Part shown: in pieces, positions 32,432 through 58,854 of the stretch
Layout of the letters: every line of letters starts with the position of its first letter
Position numbering within the stretch: the stretch's first letter is position 1
Program-made: the position numbers and the translations under genes
The notes under the pieces: model-generated
What the model was told of the DNA's origin: nothing
Database searches by the model: none
What the model saw: only the letters and a program-made list of their open reading frames with translations
Source of the DNA: an uncultured Clostridia bacterium
GTDB lineage: Bacteria; Bacillota; Clostridia; Oscillospirales; Oscillospiraceae
Direction: 5' to 3'
DNA length: 64,000 nt
NCBI GenBank assembly: GCA_946186375.1
Contig: CAMHMZ010000010.1
Coordinates: 1 to 64,000 of the forward strand

Positions 32432-34174
32432 CGGGTCACCGTCACAGATAACATTGGCACGAAAAACCTTGTCCGGACGCTTTTCCGTTTCCTGGACAAT
32501 TGTGACATTTAAGCTATCTTTCGTGCCAGAATTAAAAGTTTCGGCGCTCTTTTCTAACGTTTCTGGCTCTTTTGCCTCTTCCGGCAGCATACCGCAGCGC
32601 AAAATGCTGTCGATATCGTCCTTGAGCTTGATATCGACGTGATCTTCATAGACGTAGATCTTGTCGATGATCAAGTGCAGATCCTTCGGATCGAGCTTGT
32701 CCTTCTCCAAAATCTCATCAAAGACCTCAATGGCGGTCTTGGCGGCTCTATTGACCCGAATGATCGTATTTTCGCGATTTTTGGTCAATTCTATCTGTTT
32801 TTCCAGGCTGGAAATTCGATTTTCGATATCCGCCTCCATCTCGTCATAGGTTCGGTTGATGATGGCTTCGTTCTGCGGGCGCTTGAGAAGATCGCGTACG
32901 CGTTGCCGTTTTGCGATCTGAAGCTCCTCCCGGAGCTCTTCGAGAACCGCTTCCATGTTGTCAGCAGCGGTCTCTTTCTCGGCCAGGTCTTCATCCTGCT
33001 TTTGAATGTCATTTTGTAGGATTTCGATCATATCTGCCGAGGTTTCCCGCACTTTTCGGAGATATTCCTTCAGCAGCTTGTCCAGAACGTCCACCCGGAT
33101 GTAATGGCTGGTGCAGCCCTTCAAGCCCTGCCGATGATAGGTGCCGCAGCGGTAGGCGTCCCGCAGATCGGGCCGACTCATGGAGAACATGGGACTGCCG
33201 CAGTCCCCGCATACGAGAAAACCGGTATAGGTGTTCTCGTATTTTTTTACGCCCCGGTAGTCGCTCTTGGAGCGGGACTTCCTCAGCTCCTGTGCGATCC
33301 GAAAGTCTCGATAGCTAATGATCGCCTGGTGGTGGTTTTCGATGACGATCTGATCATCGACGTCTTTCTTGACGTCCTTGCCGTTAATCTTCTTTCGGGT
33401 GTACTTGCTTTGGCGCATGGTGCCGATGTAAAAGTCGTTGTCCAGGATCCCCTGCACGGTGACGATAGCCCAAACCTGCTTGACCGGACGCTTGTACTCC
33501 TTGCCCTCGGCCTCCTTGCGCTCCCGCTCGGACATGCGGGGCGTGGGGATACCCTCGTCGGTCAGATAGTTTGCGATCCGCTTATAGCCCCAGCCGTCGA
33601 TGTACAGCTCAAAAATCTTGCGGACGACCTCGGCCTCGGTGGGCACAACTTCGAATTCCTGCCGGGCATTGACCTTGTAGCCGTAGGGCGCGGCGGTGAT
33701 CCACTTGCCGTCCTTTTGCCGACGGTTCACGACAGCCCGCACCTTCTTTGAAGTGTCGGTGACCGGCATCTCGTTCATGAGAAAGCGCAGTTGGATGTTG
33801 AGCCATTGGTCATCGTTGGGAAAGTCGATCCCATCCCCGATGGAGATGATGCGTATCCCGGCGTCGCGCAGATCTTCCAGCTCTCCCAGCCCCTTGCTGT
33901 TGCGGCGGGAGAAACGGGAGAAATCCTTGACCACCAGAATGTCGTATGTGTGATTGAGCAGTCCCCTGCGCAGCTTCTGATATCCTTCCCGCTGCTCAAA
34001 GGTGTAGCCGGAGCGGTCGCGGTCTTCAAAGAATGTCAGGCTGCTGCCGGGAAATTTTTCTTTGACAAAGTCCTCGATGATCGCCTTCTGGTTTTCGATC
34101 GAGGTGTTGTCCCGGTCCAGTTCTTCATCGACGGAGATCCGGCAGTATCCCGCAATATCGAAGGTTTCTATCAC
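31988..34174 (-). CDS. Large serine recombinase, fused in frame to SpoVT C-terminus
   Basis: This is a 728-residue frame. Residues 1-581 are a large serine integrase: resolvase domain with catalytic Ser in IAGYCRISVDEE, DFSRFSRRNSKG, a recombinase domain, the zinc ribbon LVCGDCGSPM...CGTYHRQGLKGC, a coiled coil and a C-terminal basic region. Residues 582-728 are SpoVT residues 34-180, entered without stop through the attachment site (ANVICDGDP then LEIF). The start is taken as GTG 34174, just before the catalytic domain. In the excised circle the frame would instead end with the 25 residues now attached to spoVT codon 33. It catalyses site-specific integration and excision of the element. Confidence 0.88.
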   Translation of the reverse strand: MIETFDIAGYCRISVDEELDRDNTSIENQKAIIEDFVKEKFPGSSLTFFEDRDRSGYTFEQREGYQKLRRGLLNHTYDILVVKDFSRFSRRNSKGLGELEDLRDAGIRIISIGDGIDFPNDDQWLNIQLRFLMNEMPVTDTSKKVRAVVNRRQKDGKWITAAPYGYKVNARQEFEVVPTEAEVVRKIFELYIDGWGYKRIANYLTDEGIPTPRMSERERKEAEGKEYKRPVKQVWAIVTVQGILDNDFYIGTMRQSKYTRKKINGKDVKKDVDDQIVIENHHQAIISYRDFRIAQELRKSRSKSDYRGVKKYENTYTGFLVCGDCGSPMFSMSRPDLRDAYRCGTYHRQGLKGCTSHYIRVDVLDKLLKEYLRKVRETSADMIEILQNDIQKQDEDLAEKETAADNMEAVLEELREELQIAKRQRVRDLLKRPQNEAIINRTYDEMEADIENRISSLEKQIELTKNRENTIIRVNRAAKTAIEVFDEILEKDKLDPKDLHLIIDKIYVYEDHVDIKLKDDIDSILRCGMLPEEAKEPETLEKSAETFNSGTKDSLNVTIVQETEKRPDKVFRANVICDGDPLEIFTDKDGELIFKKYSPIGELTDFAAQLCDSLRRSTDGIAAICDRDAVIAIAGGARRELLEKAVSPVLSEIMEKRGIYRRESGSSELPVSAADDRYCLSVAAPILAEGDVMGAVLFIAPRGASPAGEVELKLAQTVAAFLGKQMES
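32432..32440. other. Attachment site, left junction
   Basis: The 9-bp core CGGGTCACC is repeated directly at 58756-58764. Inside the element it is followed by GTCACAGATAACATTGG, which mirrors the inner flank at the other end. Confidence 0.88.
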
Positions 34175-34294
34175 AATAATCACCAGCTTTCTATTTTGCT
34201 TGTTGATAGTATTGTAACATGTTTTTTCGGGATTGCAAGAGATATTTTTTGAAAATGGGAAATGATGCCCGTTTTTATACTCTTCTTCAATAAA

Positions 34295-34470
34295 ACGATT
34301 GAAAATCGTATTATTGCCGGTGAGCTTTCTGCTCACCGGCAAGGGCGCATTGCGCCCTTGAAGAAACCGTGTAATACCAATCTCGAGCAAAGCCTGTGCT
34401 TTGCTCGGCGCAGCAGTGGCTGCGCATAAACCGCTTGATTATCAAGCGGTTTATTGAAGATTGGTATTAT
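34295..34470. repeat. Six-hairpin locus with a cloverleaf-like unit
   Basis: In order: ACGATT/AATCGT (34295-34309); GCCGGTGAGC/GCTCACCGGC (34316-34340); a 10-bp CAAGGGCGCA hairpin (34340-34360); then an 11-bp outer stem TAATACCAATC/GATTGGTATTA (34372-34382 with 34459-34469) enclosing three hairpins: CGAGCAAAGC/GCTTTGCTCG (34384-34407), GCGCAGC/GCTGCGC (34408-34425) and ATAAACCGCTTGAT/ATCAAGCGGTTTAT (34426-34454). Only five bases of the unit lie outside stems and loops. It sits between the recombinase and the mob genes and could be an oriT, a MITE or a structured RNA. Confidence 0.85.
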
Positions 34471-34751
34471 AGCGCCATTTCTCGCTTGACCGCCCGCTGT
34501 TTTTGCTCAACGGCCTGCTTCTCCTTCTCCATTTCCAACTCCCGGATCCGTGTTTTGTTGTAGAGCAGAAGATCCCGGATCGATTCCTTCATGTTTCCGT
34601 TCCCGGAATGAAAGACCGCGACCAGATACTTCTTGGCCTTGTACTCCTTGTAGAGCGGCTTTAAGGAATCCAGCAGCTCCTGATCTTGGCTCTCCGCACG
34701 GGTGAGCCAGATGTTCACACGTTTTTCCTTGTCTTTGACTTCAATTTCCAT
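34467..34751 (-). CDS. Small mobilization-region protein, 94 aa
   Basis: This 94-residue charged protein has an N-terminal beta/alpha part (MEIEVKDKEKRVNIWLTRAE) and a basic C-terminal coiled coil (about 60-94). I recognise no named domain. Position downstream of the relaxase on the same strand (76-base gap) suggests an accessory role in mobilization. The stop codon lies inside the outer stem of the cloverleaf unit. RBS GTGAGGTGAGC precedes the ATG. Confidence 0.65.
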   Translation of the reverse strand: MEIEVKDKEKRVNIWLTRAESQDQELLDSLKPLYKEYKAKKYLVAVFHSGNGNMKESIRDLLLYNKTRIRELEMEKEKQAVEQKQRAVKREMAL

Positions 34752-34827: not shown

Positions 34828-36294
34828 TTAACGCTCTTGTTCATGGGTTCTCTCTCTTCTCGGTTTCAGATAGCTTTCCAAGGTTCCTTGGATGCCGCGC
34901 AGCTTGAGCATCTCGTCGCGGGCGACTTTCACCTGGGGCGCTTCCTTTTCCAAGCTCGCTTTCAATTCGGCGACTTCCTTTTTCCAGTCAGCCACCGTGG
35001 TGTCTGTCCACTGTTTGCCGGGGCTGAACTCATTGAGAACTCTCCGCGCCCGTTCGAACAGGATCAGTTCGGAGTCGTGTTCTGCCCGGTATTTCTCCTT
35101 TGCCTTTTTGAATCGATGCCCATTCAGAGCTTCTTTGATCGGTAGATACTTTTTGTAAATCGCAGCCTGCTTGATTGCTTCGTTCAGTTTTTTGACCCGA
35201 GCCTCGTTGTTTTTCACACGCTCTGTCAGCTCATCGTAGAATTTGCTGGTCTCTGTAACTTTGGCATCGAGCTCGTCCGCATTGGTGATCCCCATCTCCT
35301 GCAGATCGATCAGCGCCTGCGATGCTTCCTGAATATGGCGGAGAGATTTGCTGCGGGACGGAAGATTGTTCAACTGCTCCTGCACGACCCAGGCCAGCGA
35401 TGGCTCTTCCGGCGTAGGGAGTTGATTCAGTTCCTCCCGTGCGGTTTGCAGCCATTCCCTCAGATCTTTAAGCTTGCGTTCCGTCTCGCGGATCACGGCG
35501 TTGAGCTGCCGGACGAAGCGGTTGTAATCGCCGATCTCGGTGCGGATACCCTTCTTTTCCATCGCATGTACTGCGGGACCTTCGTGGATCTGCGCGAGCA
35601 TTTCCACGCCCTGCCGCTCATAGGAGCGATTGTCCAGGTGAATGTCCAGGCCCTTTTCCGCAAACTTTTCGTTGCAGAGCCTTGCCCAGCTCGCGCGCAA
35701 TTCTTCCAGCGCGCCGCGTTTGTCGAGACCGTTGCAGCTGCGGCTTTCGGTTTTGTATCTTCTGCGTTTTTCATCCCAGATGCGATCACCGTTTTCATCC
35801 AGAACGAAAACCTGCTCCTGCTTTTTGCCGAAAAGACCGTTGGGTTCGATGGCCCGCATGGGGATCAGAACGTGCATGTGCGGGTTGGGTGTGCCGCCCG
35901 GCTCGCGCTCGGGATCGTGCACCGCATAATCGCAGATCAATCCTTTCGAGACGAAATTCTCCTGCAGGAATCGCAGTGCCAGCTCCATGTTTTCTTCGTA
36001 TGTGAATTCGTTCTGGAAAGAAAACTCGTCGCTGTAGGCCAGCTGCGCGTCGCGCCTTCGCTCGTTTTTCTCCACGGCATTCCATAAGGTTTGCCGATCT
36101 GCGTATTCGGGCGGCGCGTGTGCGGGAAGAAGAATCCCGCTGCACACAACGCCGCGCTTTCGTGTGTAGTCGCTGGTCTCACCGTAGCGTTCACTGTGTA
36201 GTTTTTCGCCGGCGCGGTAGGCAGCTGATGCCATTACGCTTGCTCCTTTGGCGCGGGAGATGACATCGCGGTGATAATGATAGAGGGCGATCAG
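34828..36294 (-). CDS. MobA/MobL-family relaxase
   Basis: This relaxase nicks oriT and stays linked to the 5' end during transfer. The 488-residue reading begins at CTG 36294 (IALYHYHRDVISRAKG), overlapping the upstream stop as CTGA. That start supplies the N-terminal strand and region before ASAAYRAGEKL that the family needs; the first ATG at 36234 would cut it off. The HxH metal motif is in NPHMHVLIPMR (about residue 140), and a long coiled C-terminal half follows (240-488). The gene is in a minus-strand mob operon between the two accessory genes. Confidence 0.85.
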   Translation of the reverse strand: MIALYHYHRDVISRAKGASVMASAAYRAGEKLHSERYGETSDYTRKRGVVCSGILLPAHAPPEYADRQTLWNAVEKNERRRDAQLAYSDEFSFQNEFTYEENMELALRFLQENFVSKGLICDYAVHDPEREPGGTPNPHMHVLIPMRAIEPNGLFGKKQEQVFVLDENGDRIWDEKRRRYKTESRSCNGLDKRGALEELRASWARLCNEKFAEKGLDIHLDNRSYERQGVEMLAQIHEGPAVHAMEKKGIRTEIGDYNRFVRQLNAVIRETERKLKDLREWLQTAREELNQLPTPEEPSLAWVVQEQLNNLPSRSKSLRHIQEASQALIDLQEMGITNADELDAKVTETSKFYDELTERVKNNEARVKKLNEAIKQAAIYKKYLPIKEALNGHRFKKAKEKYRAEHDSELILFERARRVLNEFSPGKQWTDTTVADWKKEVAELKASLEKEAPQVKVARDEMLKLRGIQGTLESYLKPRRERTHEQER

Positions 36295-36608
36295 GGATCA
36301 CCTTCTTCCAAAAGAAAGTCGAGCGCGTCGTTTACCTCCGGCATGTCGAGCAGGAAGTCGATCGTGTCGTAGATTTTCGGAATGCTCAGCCGCTTCATTT
36401 CCGGCCTGCGGCTTTCAAAGGCCGCGCCGTATTGGATCAGCCGATGCGTGCGTGCACGGTCACATTTCTTTCGCAGGTACCTTTCTTTTTGCCGATCCCG
36501 TTCCAGATTGTTCGTCAGGATCTCGAGCTCGTTTTCCCGCTTTTCGATCTGATCGCGTTTTTCATCCAGCTGGTCGCTGAGCCATTCTTGATATTGCTTT
36601 TCTGTCAT
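36291..36608 (-). CDS. Mobilization accessory protein, DUF3847-like
   Basis: This 105-residue protein has an N-terminal coiled coil (about 1-48), then RARTHRLIQYGAAFESRRPE and a C-terminal helical part ending LEEGDP. It resembles the small DUF3847-type proteins encoded before MobA-type relaxases in clostridial elements. Its TGA overlaps the relaxase start, implying coupled translation. It probably helps the relaxase bind oriT, but this is inferred from position. Confidence 0.65.
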   Translation of the reverse strand: MTEKQYQEWLSDQLDEKRDQIEKRENELEILTNNLERDRQKERYLRKKCDRARTHRLIQYGAAFESRRPEMKRLSIPKIYDTIDFLLDMPEVNDALDFLLEEGDP

Positions 36609-38601: not shown

Positions 38602-38674
38602 GTCATTTTGTAGGATTGTATCCTTTTCCTTGTTTGTATTGCTTTACAGAAAGCTGGTGCCTGCTTTGAGAGAT

Positions 38675-40129
38675 ATGGATATGCCCCCGTTCGCTCCTGT
38701 CCTTATGGAATCAACGCGCGCAATTGGTTATAGCTTGGAAGCAGCCATCGCAGATGTTATCGATAACAGCATTGCTGCCAAAGCAGGGAAAGTATACATT
38801 TCTTTTTTCCCTGTTGGAGATGCGTATGTTTCCATTCTTGATAACGGCAAAGGAATGGACGAAACTGAAATCAATCGCGCAATGCAGTATGGGAGCAAGA
38901 GCCCTTCTGAAGAACGGGATGCTGCAGATCTGGGAAGATACGGCCTTGGACTGAAAACGGCTTCATTATCTCAATGCAGGGTATTGACAGTTGTCAGCAA
39001 ACAAGGAGACAAGCTGATTGGAAGACGATGGGACTTAGATCACGTAATAGATGTACAATCCTGGTCCCTTCTTGTGCTTGACGATGACGACTTTTGCTCT
39101 GTCCCGCATATTGAAGATCTGAAGGCATTGGAGAGCGGCACACTTGTTGTTTGGCAAAACCTTGATCGCCTTCTTATGGGAGAAGTGGACTTTGAAAAAT
39201 CGCTCGGCCGGAAAATGGATGAGGTTCGTGCGCATTTGGAACTTGTCTTTCATAGATACATTTCCGGCGAACCAGGAATAAAGCGTCTCGAGATTTACTT
39301 CAATGAGGTTAAAATCAAAGCTGCAGATCCGTTCCTGATAAAGAAAAGCACTCAGGCAATGGACACTGAAGTCTTGGTTGTGCGGGGGAAGAAGATTTTG
39401 GTCAAGCCGTTTATCCTTCCGCACATCTCAAAAATGACCTTAGAGGAAAGGGAAACGCTCGGAGGAAAAGAAGGAATCCGAAAGCAGCAGGGCTTCTATG
39501 TATATCGCAATAAGCGGCTTGTTGTTTGGGGAACATGGTTCCGGATGATGCGGCAAGGTGACATGTCAAAGCTTGCCCGCGTTATGGTTGACATTCCGAA
39601 TGATCTGGATGATCTTTGGACTCTGGATATAAAGAAATCACATGCAATTCCTCCTGCTGAGGTAAGAAACAATCTCCAGATTGTTATTGACCGCATTGCG
39701 GACAAGAGTAAACGGACATGGACATTCCGCGGCAAAAAAGAAACCACGGATAAAGTGGAACATGTGTGGACTCGTCTCAAAGCAACTGAGGGCGGGGTTA
39801 CATACGAAATCAACAGAAAGCACCCGCTTGTTGAACAGATTAATTCTGAGTTCCCCGAGGCGAAAAGAGCCGTGGAATCTCTCCTGAAGAACATTGAACG
39901 AGGCATACCGCTGAACCAGCTTTATGTTGATTTGAACAATGACGAAAAAATAGATAACGATACCGAGCTGGATGAAACAGAGGTTAGAAACACACTTGAG
40001 CAGATGCTTGCCTCTATGCCGAGCGGTATCGTACGAAAGGAATTCTTGGAGAAAATCGAACATACGGAGCCGTTCTGTGAATTCCCTGAAATGATTCAGG
40101 CACTAATTGACAAGGAGAAAAACGGATGA
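38675..40129 (+). CDS. MORC/MutL-like GHKL ATPase
   Basis: This 484-residue protein has a GHKL ATPase domain: the Mg-binding Asn in ADVIDNSIAA (about 31), DNGKGM (56-61) and GRYGLGLKTA (87-96). An S5-like domain and a C-terminal helical part follow. GHKL ATPases of this kind, related to MORC and MutL, were linked by Iyer, Abhiman and Aravind (2008) to prokaryotic restriction-modification clusters with Z1, AIPR and Vsr proteins, which matches the neighbours here. Such ATPases may form DNA clamps. The start is ATG 38675; TTG 38630 is possible. Its end overlaps the next gene by four bases. Confidence 0.85.
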   Translation: MDMPPFAPVLMESTRAIGYSLEAAIADVIDNSIAAKAGKVYISFFPVGDAYVSILDNGKGMDETEINRAMQYGSKSPSEERDAADLGRYGLGLKTASLSQCRVLTVVSKQGDKLIGRRWDLDHVIDVQSWSLLVLDDDDFCSVPHIEDLKALESGTLVVWQNLDRLLMGEVDFEKSLGRKMDEVRAHLELVFHRYISGEPGIKRLEIYFNEVKIKAADPFLIKKSTQAMDTEVLVVRGKKILVKPFILPHISKMTLEERETLGGKEGIRKQQGFYVYRNKRLVVWGTWFRMMRQGDMSKLARVMVDIPNDLDDLWTLDIKKSHAIPPAEVRNNLQIVIDRIADKSKRTWTFRGKKETTDKVEHVWTRLKATEGGVTYEINRKHPLVEQINSEFPEAKRAVESLLKNIERGIPLNQLYVDLNNDEKIDNDTELDETEVRNTLEQMLASMPSGIVRKEFLEKIEHTEPFCEFPEMIQALIDKEKNG

Positions 40130-42861: not shown

Positions 42862-43799
42862 TTATCACACCAGACCAGATACACAGCAAGTGGAGATCCG
42901 TCGACTTTTCACACGGCGGGTATATTCAGCTTGAAATAACACATCCGCTTGAATGGTATATCGGCTATAAAGGAATTGACGAGAAGACTCTGCTTGTCAT
43001 CTCAGCAAATGAGCCGGAACGCATACCGTCATCAAAGTCTCTTCTTGTATCTAAGGGGCTTCGTACAGATGGCAGGTGGACCTTAACGTTCACGCTTATG
43101 CGCAAAGACCAAGACAGCGTTTTTGAAACACTGTGCGCGGATATCATTTGCTACTCAGAAACTGCTGCAGACGAAGCGGCTGCTTTGCTGCAAGTTGCAA
43201 AACGCTATAAGCAGTGGGATAAACTGCTGGAGCACCAGAGAAAATCCTTGATGGACGAAAGCAGCCGAAAAGGTCTGTTCGGAGAGCTGGTTTTCTTAAA
43301 CCAGGTAATGGATAACGGCAGACCAGCTCTTCCGGCTGTACAAGGTTGGGTTGGCCCAGATGGCGCAGACCAAGATTTTGCATATGACAGCTTCTGGCAC
43401 GAAATAAAAACAGTCGGGATTTCTGCTGATTCTATTACGATCTCTTCATTGGAACAATTGAACACGGAAAGCTCAGGAGAAATCGTTGTTATGCGCGTTG
43501 ATAAATGCGCGCCGCAGCATGCTGATGCCAGATCACTTGCAGAGGAAGTCGATTTAACCGTAGAGAGGATCTCTTCGGATTCAGATGCATTAACTCTGCT
43601 GGAAAACAAATTGTCAAAATACGGGTACATAGACCTTCCTGAGTATCGTGAACAAAAATACCACTATTCCGGACGGGAGCGTTTCTTTGTAGGTGACGGG
43701 TTCCCCAGACTGACATCTGCTAATGTACCTACTCAAATTACCGCGGCTCAGTATTCTATAAGCCTTGCGGGAATAGCGGCCTGGAAAATGGAGGAGTAA
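42858..43799 (+). CDS. PD-(D/E)XK-motif protein (DUF4420-like)
   Basis: This 313-residue protein has a nuclease-type core: GLFGELVFL (Glu on the first helix), GADQDFAYDSF (Asp) and WHEIKTVG (Glu-x-Lys), the PD-(D/E)XK pattern. It resembles the DUF4420 family found next to Z1 and AIPR genes. It is a probable DNA cleavage subunit of the system. It overlaps the Z1 gene by four bases, and the AIPR gene starts three bases after its stop. Confidence 0.8.
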   Translation: MIITPDQIHSKWRSVDFSHGGYIQLEITHPLEWYIGYKGIDEKTLLVISANEPERIPSSKSLLVSKGLRTDGRWTLTFTLMRKDQDSVFETLCADIICYSETAADEAAALLQVAKRYKQWDKLLEHQRKSLMDESSRKGLFGELVFLNQVMDNGRPALPAVQGWVGPDGADQDFAYDSFWHEIKTVGISADSITISSLEQLNTESSGEIVVMRVDKCAPQHADARSLAEEVDLTVERISSDSDALTLLENKLSKYGYIDLPEYREQKYHYSGRERFFVGDGFPRLTSANVPTQITAAQYSISLAGIAAWKMEE

Positions 43800-43802
43800 A
43801 CA

Positions 43803-45878: not shown

Positions 45879-45904
45879 GAATTAGAGAAGAGAGGACGCT
45901 CTTT

Positions 45905-47930: not shown

Positions 47931-48835
47931 CAATGAAAAGGTCAAAAATTGATTCGAGAGTTCCGCGGTATACCCAATTAATTGTACCAACATTTGAGGC
48001 CTTAAAAGCTTTAGGCGGATCAGGGAAGAATGATGAGATATTAGATCAAATAATAACCGCCTTGGAAATCCCTGACGAGGTTGCAGATATTCAACATAAG
48101 GGAAGAACAAATAAATCAGAATTATCATATCAAGCAGATTGGGCTAGAACCTACTTGCGGATATACGGTATTATTGAAAACAGCGCAAGGAGCGTTTGGT
48201 CAATTATGCCCGATTATGTTTCGGTCCCAGAGATTGACGCCAAAATGATTGTAGACACTGTTACAAAAGAAACCAAAAAAAGACGGTCGGAAAAGAAGCA
48301 GACTGTTGGTTCAGGAGAGAACGATAAGCCGGAAGATGATGATCCTACTAATGACTATTCTGAGTATCCAGATGAATTAAAACCATGGCGAGAACAACTC
48401 GCTGATATCCTGCAGAACATGGACCCATACGGTTTTGAAAGACTGGCTCAGCGTGTTTTAAGAGAGTGTGGCTTTTCGCAAGTTGAAGTCACCAAAAAAT
48501 CTGGGGATGGCGGTATCGATGGAACTGGAAAACTTAAGATTAATGGTATTTTCAGCTTTAATGTTGCATTTCAATGTAAACGATACAGTGGCTTGGTAGG
48601 CGCACCGGCGATTCGAGATTTCAGAGGATCATTAACCACAAATATTGAAAAAGGTGTTCTAATTACGACGGGTTCTTTTTCAAAGGCAGCAAGAGAAGAA
48701 GCCGCTAGCCCCGGGAAGCAACAGATTGATCTTGTTGATGGAGAGGACTTCATCAATATGATTGCAGAATATGGTATTGGCGTTAAAGAAGTGAAAACAT
48801 ACGAGATAGACGAGAATTTCTTTAAAAAAATATAG
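47927..48835 (+). CDS. Mrr-like restriction endonuclease
   Basis: This 302-residue protein has an N-terminal winged-helix-like Mrr_N domain (about 10-100), an acidic linker and a C-terminal Mrr catalytic domain (about 155-290). The active site is GDGGIDGTG (Asp about 198) and FQCKRY (Gln-x-Lys, about 216-218). Mrr enzymes cleave modified or foreign DNA. It overlaps Vsr 1 by four bases and ends the first defence cluster. If methyl-dependent it could attack differently modified phage DNA; that is inference. Confidence 0.88.
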   Translation: MTMKRSKIDSRVPRYTQLIVPTFEALKALGGSGKNDEILDQIITALEIPDEVADIQHKGRTNKSELSYQADWARTYLRIYGIIENSARSVWSIMPDYVSVPEIDAKMIVDTVTKETKKRRSEKKQTVGSGENDKPEDDDPTNDYSEYPDELKPWREQLADILQNMDPYGFERLAQRVLRECGFSQVEVTKKSGDGGIDGTGKLKINGIFSFNVAFQCKRYSGLVGAPAIRDFRGSLTTNIEKGVLITTGSFSKAAREEAASPGKQQIDLVDGEDFINMIAEYGIGVKEVKTYEIDENFFKKI

Positions 48836-49205: not shown

Positions 49206-51335
49206 ATGAACTCGCGTACTATCGAGATTCCCATGAAATTTCATCCACGTGCTTTTTCTGCTTTCGGTGCGGATCTAGTAACCAATGATTGTGTTGCAAT
49301 CGCTGAGCTTGTAAAAAACAGTTACGATGCTTTTGCGGAAAACGTTATAGTTACAGTCTCATCAGATTATCTTGAAATAAGAGATGATGGGCTTGGAATG
49401 ACAGCGGAAATCATTCGTGATGCATGGGCAGTTATTGCAACCCCATACAAAAAAAGAACTCCTGTTGTCCATAAGGACGGAAAAGTCCGCCGGGTTTCTG
49501 GAAACAAAGGATTAGGGCGGTTTTCTGCTGCACGACTTGGCAGATACCTTAAGATTATTACAAAAAATGACTCAGATCAGTTGATAACTGCTGTTATTGA
49601 CTGGGAAAGCTTTGCTAATTCTAACAACATGTCAGATTGTAGAATTGAGATGACTGTTGGCGGAGAAACTGACCTTAATAGGCTTTCCAATAGTGGAACA
49701 ATAATCCAGATAACTGGATTATATGAGCAGTGGAATGCACAGAAAGTTACGGAATTAGAAAATGCTCTCTCAAGACTGATTTCGCCCTTTGACAGTAAGC
49801 ATGATTTTAGTATTGTTCTTAACTACGAGTCATATGCAGCGCCTGTTTACATTAAACCGCAAGAGTTTATTCAACATCCCACATATAGTATTGAGGGAAC
49901 TGTTGACGACTCTGGGGCTATTTCGTGGAGTTATCGCTATGCCCCAAAGAAACGCCTTTTGACGGAAAAGTCCGGGAAGATTCTTTGGAAAGATGCACAC
50001 AATGGTTTTGATGCTGTTCACACTATTGATTCTGATATAATTGAGTCATATGTTGCTGGGAACTTTACCTTTGAAATCCGTGCATGGGATCTCGATAGTG
50101 ACAGCATCGCCGATGTTTCTGCCGCGTTCAATATAGGGAGGAGAGAAATCAGAGGGAATATTGCCCAATACAAAGGGTTATCCGTTTACAGAGATAATAT
50201 TCTGGTCCTTCCAAAGTCGGACGCTTCTAAAGATTGGCTTGGCATTGACGTAAGACGTGTTAGTTCTATTGGTAAACGAATGAGTACAAGCCAGATTATT
50301 GGCATGGTCAACATCTCATCTGAAAACAATCCAGGCATCAAAGATACTACTGACAGAGAAAAACTGGTTGACACTGTAGAGTATCATCAGTTCTGCAAAT
50401 TAGTAGAAACGATTATTTCTACACTCGAAGATTTGAGATATTCTGATAAAAAACCTGCAGAGAAAACTCCACGTGGATTAAGTGATTTAATTACCCCGCT
50501 GTCTGCCATGCCGTTAGTATCTAAACTTGAAAATGAACTGAGTAAAGGAAGCAATTCAGAACAATTGATCGAGGAGGTTCGAAATTACGCGGCAGAGAAC
50601 GAAAAAACACTAAGCGAATTAAACGAAAGGCTAACATATTATGCTCAGACAGCCTCTCTCGGATCCGTTGCTGTTGTCATTTTACACGAAATCCTTACAG
50701 GAATGACAGTAATAAAACGTTTCCTTAGGAGAATCCGCAAAGTGTTTGTTAATGCAGACCCAAAGACCATAGAGTATCTGGAAGACTCAGAAACTTGGCA
50801 TTCCAGACTAGTAGATGTAGCAAATAGCTTTGCCCCGCTGTATAGGAAGTCGCTCAAAAATGAACACAATACATGTAATATATATGAAGAAATACGAAAA
50901 AGCATTCGCTTGATTTCCAGCAAAAAAGAAGCAGCCGATATTTCTTTTGAAGTTGACGCCGAAAAAACGCTTAATGCTTCCGTTTTTTCTGGCGAGTTGC
51001 AGACTATCCTGGTTAATTTGTTCGATAATGCTGTATTTTGGATTAACTATTCCCAGAAAAAGAGTAAAACAATCTCTGTAAAGGCACGTCAAATTAATGA
51101 TGCCAAAGCAAGAATTACTGTTAGCGATTCTGGAACAGGTATTGCCAGAGAAGATGCCAGCAAGATATTTCAGCCGGGAATAACATCAAAGCCGCACGGA
51201 ATAGGAATGGGACTAGTAATTGTTACAGAGCTTCTAAATAATTACGATTGTAGAATTGCAACAATTATCCCTGGTGAACTGAATGGGGCGACATTTGAAT
51301 TTGATGTACCATTAGAAAGGATTGCGGAAAAATGA
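49206..51335 (+). CDS. Protein with two GHKL ATPase domains (Hsp90/MutL-like plus histidine-kinase-like)
   Basis: This 709-residue protein has two different ATP-binding folds. N-terminal: Asn in AELVKNSYDA (about 38), DDGLGM (60-65) and GNKGLGRFSAARLG (about 100-113), the HATPase_c_3 type. C-terminal: a helical segment with VVILHEILTG (possible phospho-His about 493), then LVNLFDNAVFWI (N box about 602), VSDSGTGI (G1) and HGIGMGLVIV (G2), as in sensor histidine kinases. The next gene encodes a receiver domain and overlaps by ATGA, so phosphotransfer between them is likely. No membrane segment: sensing would be cytoplasmic. Confidence 0.85.
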   Translation: MNSRTIEIPMKFHPRAFSAFGADLVTNDCVAIAELVKNSYDAFAENVIVTVSSDYLEIRDDGLGMTAEIIRDAWAVIATPYKKRTPVVHKDGKVRRVSGNKGLGRFSAARLGRYLKIITKNDSDQLITAVIDWESFANSNNMSDCRIEMTVGGETDLNRLSNSGTIIQITGLYEQWNAQKVTELENALSRLISPFDSKHDFSIVLNYESYAAPVYIKPQEFIQHPTYSIEGTVDDSGAISWSYRYAPKKRLLTEKSGKILWKDAHNGFDAVHTIDSDIIESYVAGNFTFEIRAWDLDSDSIADVSAAFNIGRREIRGNIAQYKGLSVYRDNILVLPKSDASKDWLGIDVRRVSSIGKRMSTSQIIGMVNISSENNPGIKDTTDREKLVDTVEYHQFCKLVETIISTLEDLRYSDKKPAEKTPRGLSDLITPLSAMPLVSKLENELSKGSNSEQLIEEVRNYAAENEKTLSELNERLTYYAQTASLGSVAVVILHEILTGMTVIKRFLRRIRKVFVNADPKTIEYLEDSETWHSRLVDVANSFAPLYRKSLKNEHNTCNIYEEIRKSIRLISSKKEAADISFEVDAEKTLNASVFSGELQTILVNLFDNAVFWINYSQKKSKTISVKARQINDAKARITVSDSGTGIAREDASKIFQPGITSKPHGIGMGLVIVTELLNNYDCRIATIIPGELNGATFEFDVPLERIAEK

Positions 51336-52417
51336 GAGTATTAGTGATTGATGATATTGAGGATTCCGTAAAAGAGATACTTGACAGCTGTGATGAAAAA
51401 GGTTGGGATAAGCGATTATCCAGTTTTGATCAAGCCTATTCATCAATTATTGAATTTGATCCAGACGTAATAGTTCTTGATTGGCGTGAGGATGCGGAGA
51501 GCATTGATACAGGAGAAGTCATTCTTGAAAAAATATGGAATATTACATTCAGACCCGTTGTTGTTTTTACGGCAAATGCAGGAATCATTAATATTGATTC
51601 AAAGCTTGCAAAAAGCAAATTGGTAAAAATAATCTCCAAAGGTGACGAGTCTCCAGTTATTGATTTTTTAGCAGAAATGGAGAAGTTTGCTTCTGACTTG
51701 TCGTCTTTCCGGGCAAAAATGAGTTCCGCACTAATTGAGTCATCGAATTCAATCTATTATCTGAGCTCTGAAGGTGAAGTAGAGTCTTCTGCGGTTGAAT
51801 ATCTATTATCAAAGCGAACATCCGCATTCTTTGATGATCAGTTTATTTCAGAGCTCTCTCCCTCATGGGTTCAATATTTGTGTCCGCCCATAAGTGAATG
51901 CCTTAATGTCTGTGATGTTATTCGGGTTAGAAGTTTAGATACAGACATTAATTCTGCTGGGAATCCAGAAGAGTACTTGCTGGTTTTGACTCCTTCGTGC
52001 GATATGTATCATAATGCTGGTCGAACTCCTAAGGTTTCACATGCACTATGCGCCAGATGCTATCCTAAAGAAAGCTTTCACAAGCTGGGGTTGTTTGATA
52101 CTCCATCTTCAAAGAATGTAGATAAGGTAAAAAGCGAACTTAATCGAGGATACAATGAATGCTTTGTTCCCCTTCCATGTTTCTCTAATATTATCCCATA
52201 TATGACCGCCGATCTGAAAAAAATAGAATTAATACTATTAGATAAGATAGCAGTTAATAGCGCTCAAATCACAGAAGACACAACGCATTTTAGAGTTGCA
52301 TCCATATGTAGTCCATTCAGAGAGCAGATCGTTTGGGCGCATTTACAGAATTCGTGTCGGCCAGGGGTACCGGATCGCAACACGGAATTATGGGCAAAGG
52401 AAATATTACAGAAATGA
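51332..52417 (+). CDS. Receiver-domain protein with novel cysteine-rich C-terminus
   Basis: This 361-residue protein begins with a response-regulator receiver domain (about 1-115): acidic pair in VIDDIEDS (Asp 7-8), phospho-acceptor Asp 50 in VIVLDWRED and Lys in IISKGDE. No DNA-binding output domain follows. Instead there is an unrecognised region of about 240 residues with clustered Cys (LTPSCDMY, ALCARCYP, PLPCFS) and an end rich in charged residues. It could bind metal or nucleic acid. The four-base overlaps with both neighbours tie it to the kinase-like ATPase and the second methyltransferase. Confidence 0.78.
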   Translation: MRVLVIDDIEDSVKEILDSCDEKGWDKRLSSFDQAYSSIIEFDPDVIVLDWREDAESIDTGEVILEKIWNITFRPVVVFTANAGIINIDSKLAKSKLVKIISKGDESPVIDFLAEMEKFASDLSSFRAKMSSALIESSNSIYYLSSEGEVESSAVEYLLSKRTSAFFDDQFISELSPSWVQYLCPPISECLNVCDVIRVRSLDTDINSAGNPEEYLLVLTPSCDMYHNAGRTPKVSHALCARCYPKESFHKLGLFDTPSSKNVDKVKSELNRGYNECFVPLPCFSNIIPYMTADLKKIELILLDKIAVNSAQITEDTTHFRVASICSPFREQIVWAHLQNSCRPGVPDRNTELWAKEILQK

Positions 52418-53442
52418 ACGCTGTCGATTTTTTTTGTGGCGGCGGAGGCATGACACGCGGCTTGTTGAATGCCGGAATACATGTGCAATTTGGCCTTGAT
52501 ATTAATCCCGCTTGTCAACATACTTACGAGTATAATAACGGAATTCCATATTTATGCAGGGATATATCTTCTATAACGCCAGAAGAATTGACCCGAGACT
52601 ATCCTGTGTTGCTTAATAACGGTGATCTGTTGTTGGTGGGATGTGCTCCGTGCCAGCCTTTTAGCAAACAACGTCGATCCGACCACGAACACATTTCAAC
52701 TAATCTGCTTGATGATTTTGGACGCTTTGTTAGAGCACTCGAGCCGGTTTGCGTTTTAATCGAAAATGTTCCTGGAATACAAAACCGAGGACATGTTGTT
52801 TTCGAAAGGTTTCTAACACTTCTTGATGAAATGCATTATCACACGTTCTACACTGTGGTTAATGCTCAAAACTATGGTGTTCCTCAAAAGCGGAAACGTT
52901 TAGTGCTTATAGCTGCTCAAGACTTTTTCCCGGATGAGCCTCCAGTCACTCATGGTGGGGGCTTGTTGCCTTATATGACGGTGCGCGATGCTATTGAACG
53001 TTTTCCCGCTATTGAAGCCGGAGGAACAAATGAAGCTTTTCTGAATCATAGCGCTTCATCTCTTAGTGACATAAACCTCAGAAGAATTGAAGCGACGCCG
53101 CATGATGGCGGAGGCCGACTTGATTGGCCCCCAGAACTAGTTCTTGCTTGTCACAATCACGGACACAACGGACATACTGATGTTTATGGAAGAATGTCAT
53201 GGGATAGCGTTTCGCCGACATTGACATCCAAATGCTTTAGCCTATCTAATGGGCGGTTTGGTCATCCAGAGCAGAATAGAGCTATTTCATTACGGGAGGC
53301 GGCTGCACTTCAGAGCTTTGATGATGATTATCAATTTTTTGGAAGTACGCAAGAAATCGGAAGACAAATTGGAAATGCAGTACCCGTACTTCTTGCACAG
53401 CGTATTGGAGAATACATTCTGGCACATCACCAACAGAATTAG
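52414..53442 (+). CDS. DNA (cytosine-5) methyltransferase 2
   Basis: This 342-residue compact C5 methyltransferase carries DFFCGGGGMTRGL (I), APCQPFS with catalytic Cys about 80 (IV), LIENVPGI (VI), PQKRKRLVLI (VIII) and QIGNAVPVLLA (X). Its target-recognition region differs from the first enzyme, so the sites probably differ. The start is ATG 52414, overlapping the preceding stop as ATGA; ATG 52390 is an alternative. It is followed 12 bases later by its own Vsr. Confidence 0.92.
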   Translation: MNAVDFFCGGGGMTRGLLNAGIHVQFGLDINPACQHTYEYNNGIPYLCRDISSITPEELTRDYPVLLNNGDLLLVGCAPCQPFSKQRRSDHEHISTNLLDDFGRFVRALEPVCVLIENVPGIQNRGHVVFERFLTLLDEMHYHTFYTVVNAQNYGVPQKRKRLVLIAAQDFFPDEPPVTHGGGLLPYMTVRDAIERFPAIEAGGTNEAFLNHSASSLSDINLRRIEATPHDGGGRLDWPPELVLACHNHGHNGHTDVYGRMSWDSVSPTLTSKCFSLSNGRFGHPEQNRAISLREAAALQSFDDDYQFFGSTQEIGRQIGNAVPVLLAQRIGEYILAHHQQN

Positions 53443-53454
53443 AAGGTATTCATT

Positions 53455-53883
53455 ATGGATGTCCATTCAAAAGCAGTCCGCAGCTATAATATGTCCAAAG
53501 TCAAGAGTAGAGATACAAAACTAGAGGTAAAGGTTAGAAAATATCTGTTTGCACATGGCTTTCGATACAGAAAAAACGACTCTCGCTATCCTGGCCGACC
53601 AGATATCGTTTTGCCGAAGTATAAAACAGCTATATTTGTAAACGGATGCTTTTGGCATATGCATGCCGGATGTAAGTACTCTTGCGTGCCAAAAACAAAC
53701 TCTGACTTCTGGAAACAAAAACTAGAACAGAATAAGCAAAGAGATGAGAGAAACATCACACAGATGGAAGATCTTGGCTGGAATGTAATGATAATTTGGC
53801 AATGCGAGCTTAAAGGATCTGCGTTTGAATCCAGAATGGACGCTTTGATCAAGCAGATTACAGATAATCACTGTATGGTCTGA
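53455..53883 (+). CDS. vsr: Very-short-patch-repair endonuclease 2
   Basis: This 142-residue Vsr pairs with methyltransferase 2. It has MDVHSKAVRSYNMSKVK at the N-terminus, PGRPDIVLPKY with the catalytic Asp (50), and FVNGCFWHMH with Trp/His (67-68) but Asn where E. coli Vsr has His64, as in copy 1. It is clearly diverged from copy 1, so the two modules were probably acquired separately rather than by recent duplication. Confidence 0.92.
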   Translation: MDVHSKAVRSYNMSKVKSRDTKLEVKVRKYLFAHGFRYRKNDSRYPGRPDIVLPKYKTAIFVNGCFWHMHAGCKYSCVPKTNSDFWKQKLEQNKQRDERNITQMEDLGWNVMIIWQCELKGSAFESRMDALIKQITDNHCMV

Positions 53884-54296: not shown

Positions 54297-54815
54297 ATGA
54301 CCAAGACCTGTGCCATTATTGGCTGTTCCCCAATGTGGTTTCCGTGGGGATTTGATGAGGAAGACGAAGGCTGTGCGGCGCTGAAACTGATCCTGATAAA
54401 TCAGATCACCAGGCTGAGAAGTGAGGGCTGCACGCGCTTTTCGGTCAGCATGGACTGCGGCGCGGGGCTGTATGCGGCTGAGATCCTTCACGGGCTGAAA
54501 GAAACAGACGGAGAACTTGAGGCAATTTGCTATGTCCCGTACGAGGAGCAGGCGACCAAGTGGACGCCGGAGCTGCGGGATCGGTATTTCAATGCTCTGG
54601 CGGCCTGCTCGGAAGTCGTAAATGTGGCCTATGAGAAAACAGTGGGCTGCGAGTTCAAAGCCCACCTTGAGGCCATAAAAGAAGCCGACACAGTGATTGC
54701 GGTCTACGATCCCGATAATCCACGCTGTGAGCAGGAGGCTGCGGCCGTGGCCGTTGCGGGAATGCTGAACAAGCAAATCCTCACGCTTGATCCCAAAGCT
54801 ATCCGCTTAAAATAA
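54297..54815 (+). CDS. SLOG-superfamily (DUF1273/YspA-like) protein
   Basis: This 172-residue Rossmann-like protein fits the SLOG superfamily: TCAIIGCSPMWFPWG at the start, FSVSMDCGAGLYAAEI (glycine-rich nucleotide or ligand loop) and ADTVIAVYDP near the C-terminus. Some SLOG proteins sense or process nucleotides in conflict systems, others act in cell physiology, so the role here is open. It is a single gene divergent from the RHH regulator and ends at a terminator. Confidence 0.78.
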   Translation: MTKTCAIIGCSPMWFPWGFDEEDEGCAALKLILINQITRLRSEGCTRFSVSMDCGAGLYAAEILHGLKETDGELEAICYVPYEEQATKWTPELRDRYFNALAACSEVVNVAYEKTVGCEFKAHLEAIKEADTVIAVYDPDNPRCEQEAAAVAVAGMLNKQILTLDPKAIRLK

Positions 54816-54859
54816 AACATGGATGGACAATTTGGGCTATTCCGTTATCTTTTGCTGAT

Positions 54860-54904
54860 AAATGCCGAAAAGTGTGAGCGATTCACATTTTTCGGCATTT
54901 AAAA
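54860..54904 (+). terminator. Terminator after the SLOG gene
   Basis: AAATGCCGAAAAGTGTGA pairs (one mismatch) with TCACATTTTTCGGCATTT. A-rich sequence follows, so it may serve both strands. Confidence 0.7.
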
Positions 54905-54915
54905 TTGCAATAGCA

Positions 54916-54944
54916 TTGACTTTTTCGGCGGATACGGTTATGAT
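54916..54944 (+). promoter_or_regulatory. Promoter of the AAA+ ATPase gene
   Basis: TTGACT (54916-54921), a 17-base spacer and TATGAT (54939-54944) lie about 40 bases before the gene. Confidence 0.65.
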
Positions 54945-54985
54945 GGTCTCACACGACACTGCGATTGAAAGGGCTGATGCGTCAT

Positions 54986-56290
54986 ATGAAACGGGATATC
55001 ACGCAGGAGCTGCTTGCCTGGAAGGAGCAGCCGAACCGCAAGCCGCTGGTATTGAAGGGCGTGCGCCAATGCGGGAAGACTTATATCCTCAAAGAATTCG
55101 GGCAGGAGTATTATAAGGACGTCGCTTATTTCAACTTTGAAGAAACCAGATCCCTGAGCTCGCTCTTCGAGCAGGACTATGACGTGAAGCGGATCCTGTT
55201 CGAGCTGGGGCTGTTCCTCGGCAGGACGATCGCGCCCGGCAACACGCTGATCATCCTGGACGAGATCCAGGAGTGCCCGCGGGCGATCACGGCGCTGAAG
55301 TATTTCTGCGAGAACGCGCCGGAGTACCATGTGGCCTGCGCCGGTTCCCTGCTCGGTCTCGCCATCCATGAGAACCAGTCCTTTCCGGTGGGCAAGGTGG
55401 ATATCCGTACGCTGTACCCCATGTCCTTCTATGAGTTCCTTTCCGCAACGGGGAATGAGGCCCTGGCAGACTATCTGACCAGCTTTCAGCAGGGCTCATC
55501 TGTTTCGGAATTGATCGGGGGGAGGCTCCGCACGACACTGAAGCAGTACTATGTGGTCGGCGGGATGCCGGAGGCGGTCTCTGTTTGGTGCGAGACAGGG
55601 GATCTGGAAAAGGTCGAGGCTGTCCAACAGGATATTCTCGCAAGCTATGAGCTGGACTTCGCTAAGCATGCCCCGCCCAGCGAGTTCCCCAAGCTCTCGG
55701 CGATTTGGGCGTCCGTGCCGCAGCAGTTGGCCAAACCCAATAGCAAGTTCATTTTCAGCCATGTGAAAAAGGGCTGGCGCTCCAAGGACCTGGAGGACGC
55801 GCTGCAATGGCTGATCCGGGCCGGGCTGGTGTATCAGGTCTGCAAGGTGGAGAAGCCGTTTATGCCGCTGTCCTCCTATGCGGACGCCACCAGCTTCAAG
55901 CTCTATCTCTGCGACGTAGGTCTGCTGCGTCGGCTGGCTCGTCTGCCTGCCCAGGTAGTGCTGGAGTCCTCCGGGATCTACACGGAGTTCAAAGGCGTCA
56001 TGACCGAGAACTATGTGCTCGGCGAGCTGGTCAAGCACGTGGACGCCACACCGTATTATTGGGTTTCGGGCAACAGCGCCGAGGTCGACTTCATTGTTCA
56101 GTGCGGCGCCCATATCGTCCCCATCGAGGTGAAGGCGGAGAGCAACGTGAAGGCGCGCTCTTTGGCCGAGTACCGCAAAAAGTACACGCCGCCTGTTTCA
56201 GTCAAAACCTCCATGCTCGACGAGGTCAGTGGAAGCGAGGTGCGCCTAATCCCGCTGTATCTGATTGGGTCCATGGGGACGATGATTTAG
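54986..56290 (+). CDS. AAA+ ATPase with DUF4143 nuclease-like domain
   Basis: This 434-residue protein has an N-terminal AAA_14 ATPase (Walker A GVRQCGKT at 25-32, Walker B LIILDEIQE) and a C-terminal DUF4143 domain. Its end contains NSAEVDFIV and PIEVKAE, the Asp and Glu-x-Lys of a restriction-endonuclease fold. Such proteins are abundant in gut Clostridia and Bacteroidetes, and their role is unproven. The start is ATG 54986 (MKRDITQELLAWK fits the family); ATG 54977 is an alternative. GC is higher than in the defence genes before it, suggesting a different origin. Confidence 0.85.
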   Translation: MKRDITQELLAWKEQPNRKPLVLKGVRQCGKTYILKEFGQEYYKDVAYFNFEETRSLSSLFEQDYDVKRILFELGLFLGRTIAPGNTLIILDEIQECPRAITALKYFCENAPEYHVACAGSLLGLAIHENQSFPVGKVDIRTLYPMSFYEFLSATGNEALADYLTSFQQGSSVSELIGGRLRTTLKQYYVVGGMPEAVSVWCETGDLEKVEAVQQDILASYELDFAKHAPPSEFPKLSAIWASVPQQLAKPNSKFIFSHVKKGWRSKDLEDALQWLIRAGLVYQVCKVEKPFMPLSSYADATSFKLYLCDVGLLRRLARLPAQVVLESSGIYTEFKGVMTENYVLGELVKHVDATPYYWVSGNSAEVDFIVQCGAHIVPIEVKAESNVKARSLAEYRKKYTPPVSVKTSMLDEVSGSEVRLIPLYLIGSMGTMI

Positions 56291-57299: not shown

Positions 57300-57311
57300 A
57301 CAATTGTTCAT

Positions 57312-57340: not shown

Positions 57341-57455
57341 TTGATAGGATTTGTAGCACTGCGAGGCACCGCTTTATTAAGGTTTGGTTACGATGAGGTC
57401 CAAGCTCATTCCACGCACAAGCTTGGGCCAAATCTTAAGAAAGGCGGCCATTATT

Positions 57456-57650: not shown

Positions 57651-57654
57651 CCTG

Positions 57655-57683
57655 AAGAGGCAGAGTACCTTCTGCCTCTTTAC
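57655..57683 (+). terminator. Hairpin terminator after the small ORF
   Basis: AAGAGGCAGA (57655-57664) pairs with TCTGCCTCTT (57671-57680). The T-run after it is weak. Confidence 0.6.
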
Positions 57684-57695
57684 TATTTCCTCCAA

Positions 57696-57845
57696 ATGAA
57701 ATGTAAAACATCATTCATTCAATTCATCGAATACAGAGACATGATTGATGAAGCTTATCTGGAAGAAGACAGGATGTACTTCCATGAAATTTACAACAAG
57801 GAAGACAAACCAAGTTTTGTCAGCACTGATGCTCAGCAGAACTAA
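57696..57845 (+). CDS. Very small ORF, 49 aa
   Basis: ATG to TAA encodes a charged peptide rich in Glu, Asp and Tyr (MKCKTSFIQFIEYRDMIDEA at the start). A CTCC-type region precedes it instead of a clear RBS. It may be a gene or a relic. Confidence 0.25.
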   Translation: MKCKTSFIQFIEYRDMIDEAYLEEDRMYFHEIYNKEDKPSFVSTDAQQN

Positions 57846-58677
57846 GCTGCTCTTTACGGTTCGTTGTAAATAGTTTATTCTATTTACAACGAAGGGTTTA
57901 TTGAGCTTGCGTCAAACATTTTCTCGTCAAAAAACGATGCACTTTTTCTGACAGATCTGCAAACAACAAAAAACGATCCGGGATCGCGGTACGGCAGTAC
58001 AGGCGATCCCGGATCAGTGTTAGTCTCCGGCCAAGCTAAAATCACGAAATCTGAGCGACATTTTGGTGTTTATATCACGAAATCATAGCGAGATTGCGTG
58101 ATGATCATCACGTTTTCCGAAAATATACAAAGTTAAACGTCCACAAACTGGTTTGAGATCCGCATGGCAACGGCTTCCCATATCTTTAAGATAAATTAAA
58201 AGCAATATCTTGCTTCTTAAATTTGATAAGAGAATTAAAAGCGTAAAATATTACGTTTTAAAATACTGCCTCGTTCTCGTTTGACATCCCGGCAACAGTG
58301 AACCTGCTGGATCGGCTGCTCAGGGGCATCCTCTCATTCCGGGTCCACAGGGCGAAGGCCGGGCCCTCCGGAATTACGAAGGACAATGAAAGAATGTCAA
58401 ACGCAAACGAAAAAATATCAAAGCGGATTGACTTTTTTCGTTTGCGAAAAGATAGAGTTTGACTAATGAGGGTTTGCAGCACCCGAATCGGCTGTTTTGG
58501 GACTGTTTTTCGGCTAAAATGCACATATTTATCGGGGCCTGATTTACCGCTGCTGAAAACATTGAAAAGAGTATAACGGCAAAAATCCAGTCATCCCAAG
58601 GCCTTAGGACCTTTGTGCAACTTTTTTGACCCATTGCGAATGTGCATGGTAGAACACCCGTTGTCCGTCGATATGTA
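57846..58677. other. Element-end intergenic region with repeats, no supported gene
   Basis: This holds a 14-bp hairpin TTCGTTGTAAATAG/CTATTTACAACGAA (57857-57890), a GATCCGGGATCGC/GCGATCCCGGATC inverted repeat (57975-58016), two direct repeats ATCACGAAATC..AGCGA (58041 and 58074, 33 bases apart), a perfect CGTGATGATCATCACG palindrome (58097-58112), AT-rich sequence, and a CGCAAACGAAAAAA/TTTTTTCGTTTGCG hairpin (58402-58446). It ends near the right junction and probably carries regulatory or recombination-accessory sites. Confidence 0.6.
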
Positions 58678-58854
58678 CTATTCCCAGCCCTGCCTCTTAG
58701 CCAAATCCAACATAGAAAAGCTGAATTTTTGCCAGGTTTCCAATGTCGTCTGTGACGGGTCACCCTCGCGGATGCGCATGGTGCGGCGGATCTCCTTGGG
58801 GATGACCACCCGCCCGAGGTCGTCGATGCGCCGCACGATCCCTGTTGCTTTCAT
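58678..58854 (-). pseudogene. spoVT: spoVT, 5' part (codons 1-33) with an element-derived tail
   Basis: The frame starts at ATG 58854 after AGGAGGATTATTGCAT and encodes MKATGIVRRIDDLGRVVIPK, then EIRRTMRIREGDP, the DNA-binding N-terminus of SpoVT. At the junction it enters the element and gains 25 foreign residues (SQTTLETW...QGWE) before a stop. The 58-residue product keeps only the start of the AbrB-like fold, so it probably cannot work as SpoVT. After excision codon 33 would join codon 34 at 32431. These same 25 codons would then become the end of the recombinase frame in the circle. Confidence 0.93.
58756..58764. other. Attachment site, right junction
   Basis: The 9-bp core CGGGTCACC is a direct repeat of 32432-32440. 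The inner flank CCAATGTCGTCTGTGA is the mirror image of the left inner flank, with two mismatches in the shared stretch. Confidence 0.88.

Follow-up and report, generated by a model that had tools for sequence, protein, structure and literature searches.

Intervening elements that split sporulation genes are known from skin, SPβ and gin. The element described here, a 26.3-kb insertion between codons 33 and 34 of spoVT in an uncultured Clostridia bacterium, appears to extend this group to genes of the forespore, with spoVT and, in the same genome, sigG as new targets. It lies in a 64-kb stretch of DNA that was analysed as a whole and is referred to below as the window. Published systems are compared as they are described in the passages cited. 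As for the spoVT element, gin in gerE of Bacillus cereus ATCC10987 (GirC/GirX) is not a prophage, has a serine recombinase and a 9-bp core, and splits a spore regulator (PMC5595907). It has a small directionality factor, for which the spoVT element offers a candidate only, and it differs in that gerE is a mother-cell gene, encoding a mother-cell regulator, and in that excision was shown experimentally (PMC5595907). The abstract, introduction and discussion of that paper describe no fusion between recombinase and target, whereas such a fusion is present here.

In C. difficile, skin interrupts sigK (CD1231/CD1234) and combines a constitutive recombinase of σA type with the separate recombination directionality factor (RDF) that it needs (PMC5025042; PMC5595907), which is the layout we infer for the spoVT element. 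The C. difficile element differs in being prophage-like, in its confinement of excision to the terminal mother cell, and in having its RDF under σE/SpoIIID (PMC5025042); no spore promoter was found by motif scan for the candidate RDF in the window. SPβ in spsM and φ3T in kamA have an attL-int-rdf-attR unit, and their excision rebuilds the gene during sporulation (PMC6957869; PMC4191935), but these are phages with other target genes. In C. difficile, spoVT is under σF/σG and mutants gave no heat-resistant spores (PMC3789822), and deletion of spoVT severely impairs sporulation in B. cereus but not in B. subtilis (PMC5061766). No report of spoVT or sigG as the target of an element was found in the open-licence literature, as judged by listings and cited passages, and the main text of a survey of large serine recombinases (PMC10083194) has no mention of spoVT.

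The explanation that we consider probable is that the insertion is a horizontally mobile serine-recombinase cassette, dedicated to spoVT and similar to skin and gin, but residing in forespore genes. It is likely competent for excision. That excision is timed to sporulation is the least certain part, and has a chance slightly short of even.

The split spoVT gene and its element family

The insertion had been predicted from the sequence of the window, and the analysis confirms it. Codons 1–33 (58756..58854) and codons 34–180 with the stop (31988..32431, codons 32431–31991) both lie on the minus strand, and the 9-bp core that is common to the element ends and the gene halves, CGGGTCACC, occurs twice in the 64 kb, at the 5′ junction (attR, 58756..58764) and the 3′ junction (attL, 32432..32440), with no copy on the other strand. 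Joining the flanks in silico gives a single open frame of 180 residues, so that spoVT is exactly restorable, and the rejoined protein matches TIGR02851 over model positions 1–180 with 222.5 bits, slightly missing the cut-off of 235.9. The 3′ half carries Pfam SpoVT_C (6e-37), and the N-terminal half is strongly conserved among 18 distinct interrupted copies (ω, the ratio of replacement to silent rates, 0.039). The serine recombinase noted at one element end (32432..34174, minus strand; 581 codons up to the core, without a stop) has the Pfam domains Resolvase, Recombinase and Zn_ribbon_recom and an invariant S14. The joined ends of the element form a near-palindrome with 18 of 25 arm positions matching at the best centre, compared with 14 at the next-best centre and a mean of 6.6; none of 10,000 arm shuffles, which were not maximised over centres, reached 18. 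The joined ends thus have the symmetric form that is usual for serine-integrase attP, as stated for phage enzymes (PMC5595907).

The source genome is a metagenome-assembled genome (MAG) of 3.29 Mb in 133 contigs, 83.9% complete, with the window on contig C10. The original prediction had named a second intact spoVT and an assembly error at the junctions as possible objections; no second spoVT was found in this incomplete genome, and the junction recurs on 27 other contigs, two of which, from Ruminococcaceae bacterium P7 and Lachnoclostridium sp. MSJ-17, have record titles without a MAG label.

A scan of genome collections gave 35 recombinase loci, 29 of them at about 40% identity or more, and by their record titles the relatives are mainly Oscillospiraceae, Ruminococcaceae and other Clostridia, with rumen samples as the source of several. 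SpoVT_C follows the recombinase directly and in the same frame in all 27 close loci whose contigs reach the junction, a count that leaves out L020 and L022, whose contigs stop short of the core, and six relatives at 27–30% identity, which are not fused to SpoVT_C. The reciprocal product, in which the first 33 SpoVT residues are followed by a short tail encoded in the element (SpoVT_N-tail), was searched for in 34 genome entries, some of them duplicates. Counting the window, 18 different attR sequences carry a colinear tail, and in two of them it ends one or two codons early; three divergent attR sequences (L096, L097 and L098) have longer tails, and the other genomes had AbrB-like paralogues or nothing. 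The comparison with related genomes that had been proposed found intact spoVT as well as the same junctions, and empty sites are common. By open-frame length, spoVT is unfused in 33 of 41 SpoVT-bearing genomes of the genus (for G003, this length is the sole basis for calling a fusion), and in the 23 unfused loci read as sequence the two gene halves are contiguous, with a frame break in L065. Judged from these sequences, the element family is dedicated to one attB in the AbrB-domain codons of spoVT, and this dedication makes the analogy to skin and SPβ stronger than a single locus could.

Some further copies were noted. When an excised circle was sought in a phage collection, the relatives that came up were of 65% and 53%; one scaffold stops before the core, and the other carries the in-frame fusion of recombinase and SpoVT_C. 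The fusion makes it probable that scaffold L144 (MT836658.1), which has it and is filed as a bacteriophage, is bacterial DNA or an element, not a phage genome. Locus L107 (G040) has SpoVT_N-tail copies at 3236–3406 and 5499–5672, one of them decayed, without a start codon and with VVIP changed to VGFP, 2.3 kb before the intact copy; strain P7 has two SpoVT_N-tail copies and one SpoVT_C. Tail-like ends without SpoVT occur at L110:392, L111:1747, L112:4123 and 2688, and L113:1093 (strain P7), preceded by similar sequence around CATATATATCCA..TTCTGACCCG, and may mark a second target or a small repeat family.

Exchange of protein ends at integration

The original prediction overlooked that the recombinase frame is open through the core and continues in frame into the 3′ half of spoVT, giving a fusion of 728 residues in which Pfam SpoVT_C occupies residues 602–727. 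At the opposite end of the element, SpoVT codon 33 is followed in frame by a tail of 25 codons and a stop (58678..58755, minus strand), and in the circle this tail would be the C-terminus of the recombinase. Because the recombinase frame crosses its own attP, integration trades protein ends: as read from the two junctions, it is a reciprocal swap in which the recombinase exchanges its 25-residue tail for the 147-residue C-terminal domain of SpoVT, and the tail passes to SpoVT residues 1–33. The substitution pattern indicates that the tail evolves as a protein, with ω of 0.24 beyond the att arm compared with 0.88 when that frame is continued past the stop. Recombinase residues 525–571 are weakly constrained (ω 0.55). 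The predicted structure of the fusion, which is of low confidence as a whole (mean pLDDT 64, pTM 0.41), consists of a serine integrase, a disordered linker (residues 528–601) and a folded SpoVT C-terminal domain (pLDDT 82–91 in residue blocks 611–720) that resembles 2w1r (TM 0.86 by target length).

Upstream of the split gene is a promoter pattern, GCATA-N17-AATACTA (58894..58922, minus strand), that resembles the σG consensus. Patterns of this type precede 27 of 44 distinct spoVT genes, intact and interrupted, where a mononucleotide shuffle gives an expectation of 0.26.

The split sigG gene, inheritance and spore-gene content

A second sporulation gene, sigG, is also split in the source genome. 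Its N-terminal half is at C36:24111–24401 (L122) and its C-terminal half at C74:10650–11162 (L121), beside a serine recombinase; the halves have a common GTTCC core and the joined element ends are symmetric. Among 61 genomes of the genus, 14 have sigG interrupted at a common position, and in every case at least one of the two junctions was read in sequence (loci L121, L122, L126–L135 and L145–L158); the two halves share a contig in G018 (about 22.7 kb apart) and G057 (about 17.4 kb apart). The gene is uninterrupted at this site in 30 genomes, 28 of them with a full-length copy and two (G025 and G050) with a copy cut elsewhere by contig ends; the remaining 17 have no sigG-grade match. The recombinases at the sigG loci are 68–98% identical to that of the source genome in aligned stretches, whereas the latter is 24–43% identical, in pieces, to the spoVT recombinase, and on these sequences the sigG elements are unrelated to the spoVT family. 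Both genes are split in three genomes, the source genome (G000), G027 and G037. Just inside the sigG 5′ junction of L122, L126, L129, L131 and L135 is a small gene whose product starts with MTRKQAL or a similar sequence, a possible partner of the recombinase. Genes similar to those for σF, σE and σK, named by best model, are near full length in the source genome, and two near-full-length frames rule out that sigE or sigK is split there.

The presence of other spore genes was compared between three groups of genus genomes, with G016, G023, G026, G029, G036 and G047 falling in none of them. Carriers of either split gene have small acid-soluble spore proteins (SASP) in 15 and SpoIVA in 16 of 19 genomes, those with both genes intact in 20 and 18 of 22, and those with neither sigG nor spoVT in 2 and 1 of 14; completeness is 82.7, 87.4 and 81.9% for the three groups, respectively.

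As for the inheritance of the spoVT elements, the family is, from the sequence divergences, horizontally mobile, and most carriers are not vertical. In L011 the recombinase is 97% identical to that of the window, but SpoVT_C only 56%. Exceptions may be found among four pairs of loci that have host flank and cargo in common (L026/L027, L013/L035, L024/L025 and L030/L031), of which the first two were used for selection analysis because their divergences agree best. For L026/L027, the silent divergence (dS) is 0.14–0.30 for the host (frames of at least 180 residues with low ω), 0.14–0.20 for the cargo and 0.12 for the recombinase; for L013/L035 it is 0.16–0.22 for the better-supported host frames and 0.26 for the cargo. 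Both pairs look vertically inherited. Loci L016 and L017 are similar by dS (0.40 vs 0.31), yet have neither cargo nor host flank in common. Silent and replacement changes in the interrupted SpoVT_C number 31:1 in L026/L027 and 20:2 in L013/L035, which indicates strong purifying selection if the insertions predate both pair splits; the N-terminal half in L026/L027, with one silent and no replacement change, is too short to judge. Across all fusions ω for SpoVT_C is 0.377, and it falls to 0.226 in 11 fusions selected by hand for their similarity, compared with 0.223 in intact genes. The retention of spore genes and the near-silent change in SpoVT_C fit reversible excision.

Element content, excision and sporulation

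Upstream of the recombinase, a 94-residue protein (34467..34751, minus strand) is a candidate RDF by its co-occurrence with the recombinase. It is found at 24 of the 35 recombinase loci, all of them among the 29 close ones, and four of the five close loci without it have less than 250 bases of upstream contig. Within the genus it is present in 6 of 61 genomes, all among the eight carriers of fused spoVT (6/8 vs 0/53, Fisher 5e-7). The alignment was made without L022 (two stops), L020 and L027. The protein has no family match, its predicted structure (pLDDT 86.5, pTM 0.47) no fold match at E ≤ 0.001, and a profile search of the PDB gave no solved relative (best E 0.028). From its conservation it is a natural candidate for the directionality factor. 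In front of the recombinase, the motif scans found no sporulation sigma promoter and instead a predicted σA-like promoter, TTGCAA-16-TACAAT (34211..34238, minus strand); the motif with a spacer of 16 or 17, or a close variant, lies upstream of most of 24 aligned recombinases, though not that of L029. All promoter calls are motif scans, and excision could be controlled otherwise.

The minus strand also encodes a MobA/MobL (MobQ-like) relaxase (34828..36234; Pfam PF03389 6e-73; NCBIfam MobQ 199.5 bits, cut-off 200) and a DUF3847 protein identified by domain scan (36291..36608). The plus strand carries, by PADLOC and Pfam, an MZA-type defence cargo matching the MzaB, MzaC, MzaD and MzaE models (38630..45878), a C5 DNA methylase, Vsr and an Mrr-type endonuclease (45710..48835), and a double GHKL ATPase, a 361-residue protein without assigned function and a second C5 methylase with Vsr (49206..53883), followed by a YpsA/SLOG protein and an AAA_14/DUF4143 ATPase identified by Pfam (54297..56290). 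Outside the element, upstream of spoVT, a restriction-like locus with a ResIII helicase-type protein and an Eco57I-type methylase (59061–63975, minus strand) abuts the interrupted gene. Four elements, those of the window, G046, G054 and G084, were compared end to end; at E 1e-6 only the attR tail region, the small protein (84–111 residues) and the recombinase-SpoVT_C region are common to them, and the window relaxase has no homologue in the other three. Ten proteins scanned from these indicate that G046 carries helicases together with an AbiEii-family protein, whose place is taken by ABC transport genes in G054 and by type I restriction in G084.

With respect to element class, a prophage was rejected: Pfam scans of 20 frames gave no phage structural family, a PHROGs search with ten element proteins matched nothing beyond integrase/invertase and a single family without known function, and viral contigs hold no close recombinase relative, with two matches at 25–26%. 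A plasmid stage was likewise rejected, the best plasmid relatives being about 30% identical. An integrative mobilizable element would have its own relaxase but no conjugation apparatus; a relaxase is encoded in the window, yet at E 1e-6 the elements of G046, G054 and G084 have no counterpart of it. The staphylococcal cassette chromosome (Ccr) is similar in combining a serine recombinase with variable cargo, but has a different target, and the best named NCBIfam recombinase model, CcrB, scores 112.5 bits, far below its cut-off of 900 (CcrA/B/C).

In the probable explanation, the recombinase would be made constitutively from its σA-like promoter and favour integration, and excision would become possible through the small protein, acting as directionality factor. 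Any cell completing sporulation would have excised the cassette, after which spoVT would work from its own σG-like promoter, and the circle could reintegrate on outgrowth. Excision in the forespore would cost the cassette its place in the germ line if no reintegration followed, and this counts against the explanation; a recombinase that is expressed vegetatively and integrates by default would allow such reintegration.

Further observations weigh on the same side. Neither viral contigs nor the 135 collected loci yielded an attP joint pattern or an excised circle, and spore-sigma motifs in 22 upstream regions of the small gene are not above chance (σG 1/22, σF 1/22, σE, σK and σH 0/22). The small protein is truly absent in the 5.5 kb upstream in L017, the recombinase frame, open in 23 of 24 loci read through, is shifted in L035, and the tail is frameshifted in L095. 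The genomes of the genus are incomplete MAGs that lack phylogenetic independence, and for spoVT carriers alone the comparison with genomes that have neither gene gives 5/8 vs 2/14 for SASP (P 0.05) and 6/8 vs 1/14 for SpoIVA (P 0.002). Recombinase dS, up to 1, is lower than spoVT dS in 37 of 45 pairs (a count made, like the recombinase ω, without L035), and since carriage is mostly not vertical, intact spoVT halves may reflect nothing more than a recent insertion. In L026/L027, too, the right ends of the elements are unmatched and the recombinase dS of 0.12 is below the SpoVT_C dS of 0.39, and selection on SpoVT_C could act on the fusion protein instead.

The main alternative, which we hold to be a good deal less probable without being remote, is an ordinary mobile cassette for which a conserved gene serves merely as a place to land and which abolishes SpoVT, with rare excision unlinked to sporulation; carriers would be asporogenous or poor sporulators until the cassette is lost. 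It accounts well for the strong horizontal spread seen in L011 and in the dS comparison, for cargo that is unrelated between elements, and for a small protein without a spore promoter. It sits poorly with SASP and SpoIVA being kept near the rate of intact strains and mostly lost without sigG and spoVT at similar completeness, with the interruption of sigG, too, at a single position in 14 of 61 genomes, and with the near-silent change of interrupted SpoVT_C in the two pairs with shared cargo. Simple abolition of SpoVT, which the original prediction had offered as the other outcome, is thus less likely given the spore genes and the silent change. Of the proposed analogy to skin and SPβ, the part that stands is that a serine recombinase made a precise insertion, which looks reversible, and a target-dedicated family now adds to it; regulated excision is a plausible but unproven part, as neither circle nor attP joint was found in viral contigs or the collected loci.

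It is unlikely, although compatible with a skin- or gin-like cassette, that recombinase-SpoVT_C and SpoVT_N-tail are functional fusions that make integration a switch of direction or timing. Reciprocal in-frame fusions occur family-wide, SpoVT_C is predicted to be folded behind its linker, and SpoVT_N-tail is driven by the one promoter of spore type that was found, but the agreement in frame could be a single ancestral coincidence (1 in 3), and the purifying selection on the tail as a protein can be explained by its use in the circle alone. The weak constraint on residues 525–571, the broken tail of L095 and the low confidence of the whole-fusion model also speak against it. A precedent is mycobacteriophage BPs, in which attP is within a coding gene and integration changes the C-terminus of the repressor; it differs in that the repressor is shortened on integration, whereas in the present case a host domain would be added to the recombinase (PMC4557955).

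More speculative, and rather improbable, is a germ-line switch in which cassettes in the late forespore regulators sigG and spoVT leave the future spore and reinsert on outgrowth, with the trigger in spoVT built into the split gene. The σG-like spoVT promoter would then make a SpoVT_N-tail peptide bearing the detached C-terminus of the recombinase, while the recombinase would carry the SpoVT sensory domain, so that integration itself would rewire the direction and timing of the enzyme. An assembly or binning artefact, which might be suspected in a MAG of 133 contigs, is practically excluded, since 27 further contigs and 18 different attR sequences repeat the insertion with the identical codon, frame and junction.

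Among the literature examined, the excised spore-gene elements with a stated compartment, C. difficile skin and gin, leave in the mother cell (PMC5025042; PMC5595907), and because the mother cell dies, excision there costs the element nothing. The regulators spoVT and sigG, by comparison, belong to the forespore, which becomes the next generation. The reciprocal protein swap at integration, if true, would be a new control of serine integrases, an enzyme class used in genome engineering. For the bacteria themselves, spore formation may depend on cutting cassettes out of spoVT and sigG: either mobile DNA keeps many gut and rumen bacteria from sporulating, or the spore lineage has a cycle of cutting and reinsertion, and both outcomes are directly testable and bear on the spread of gut anaerobes.

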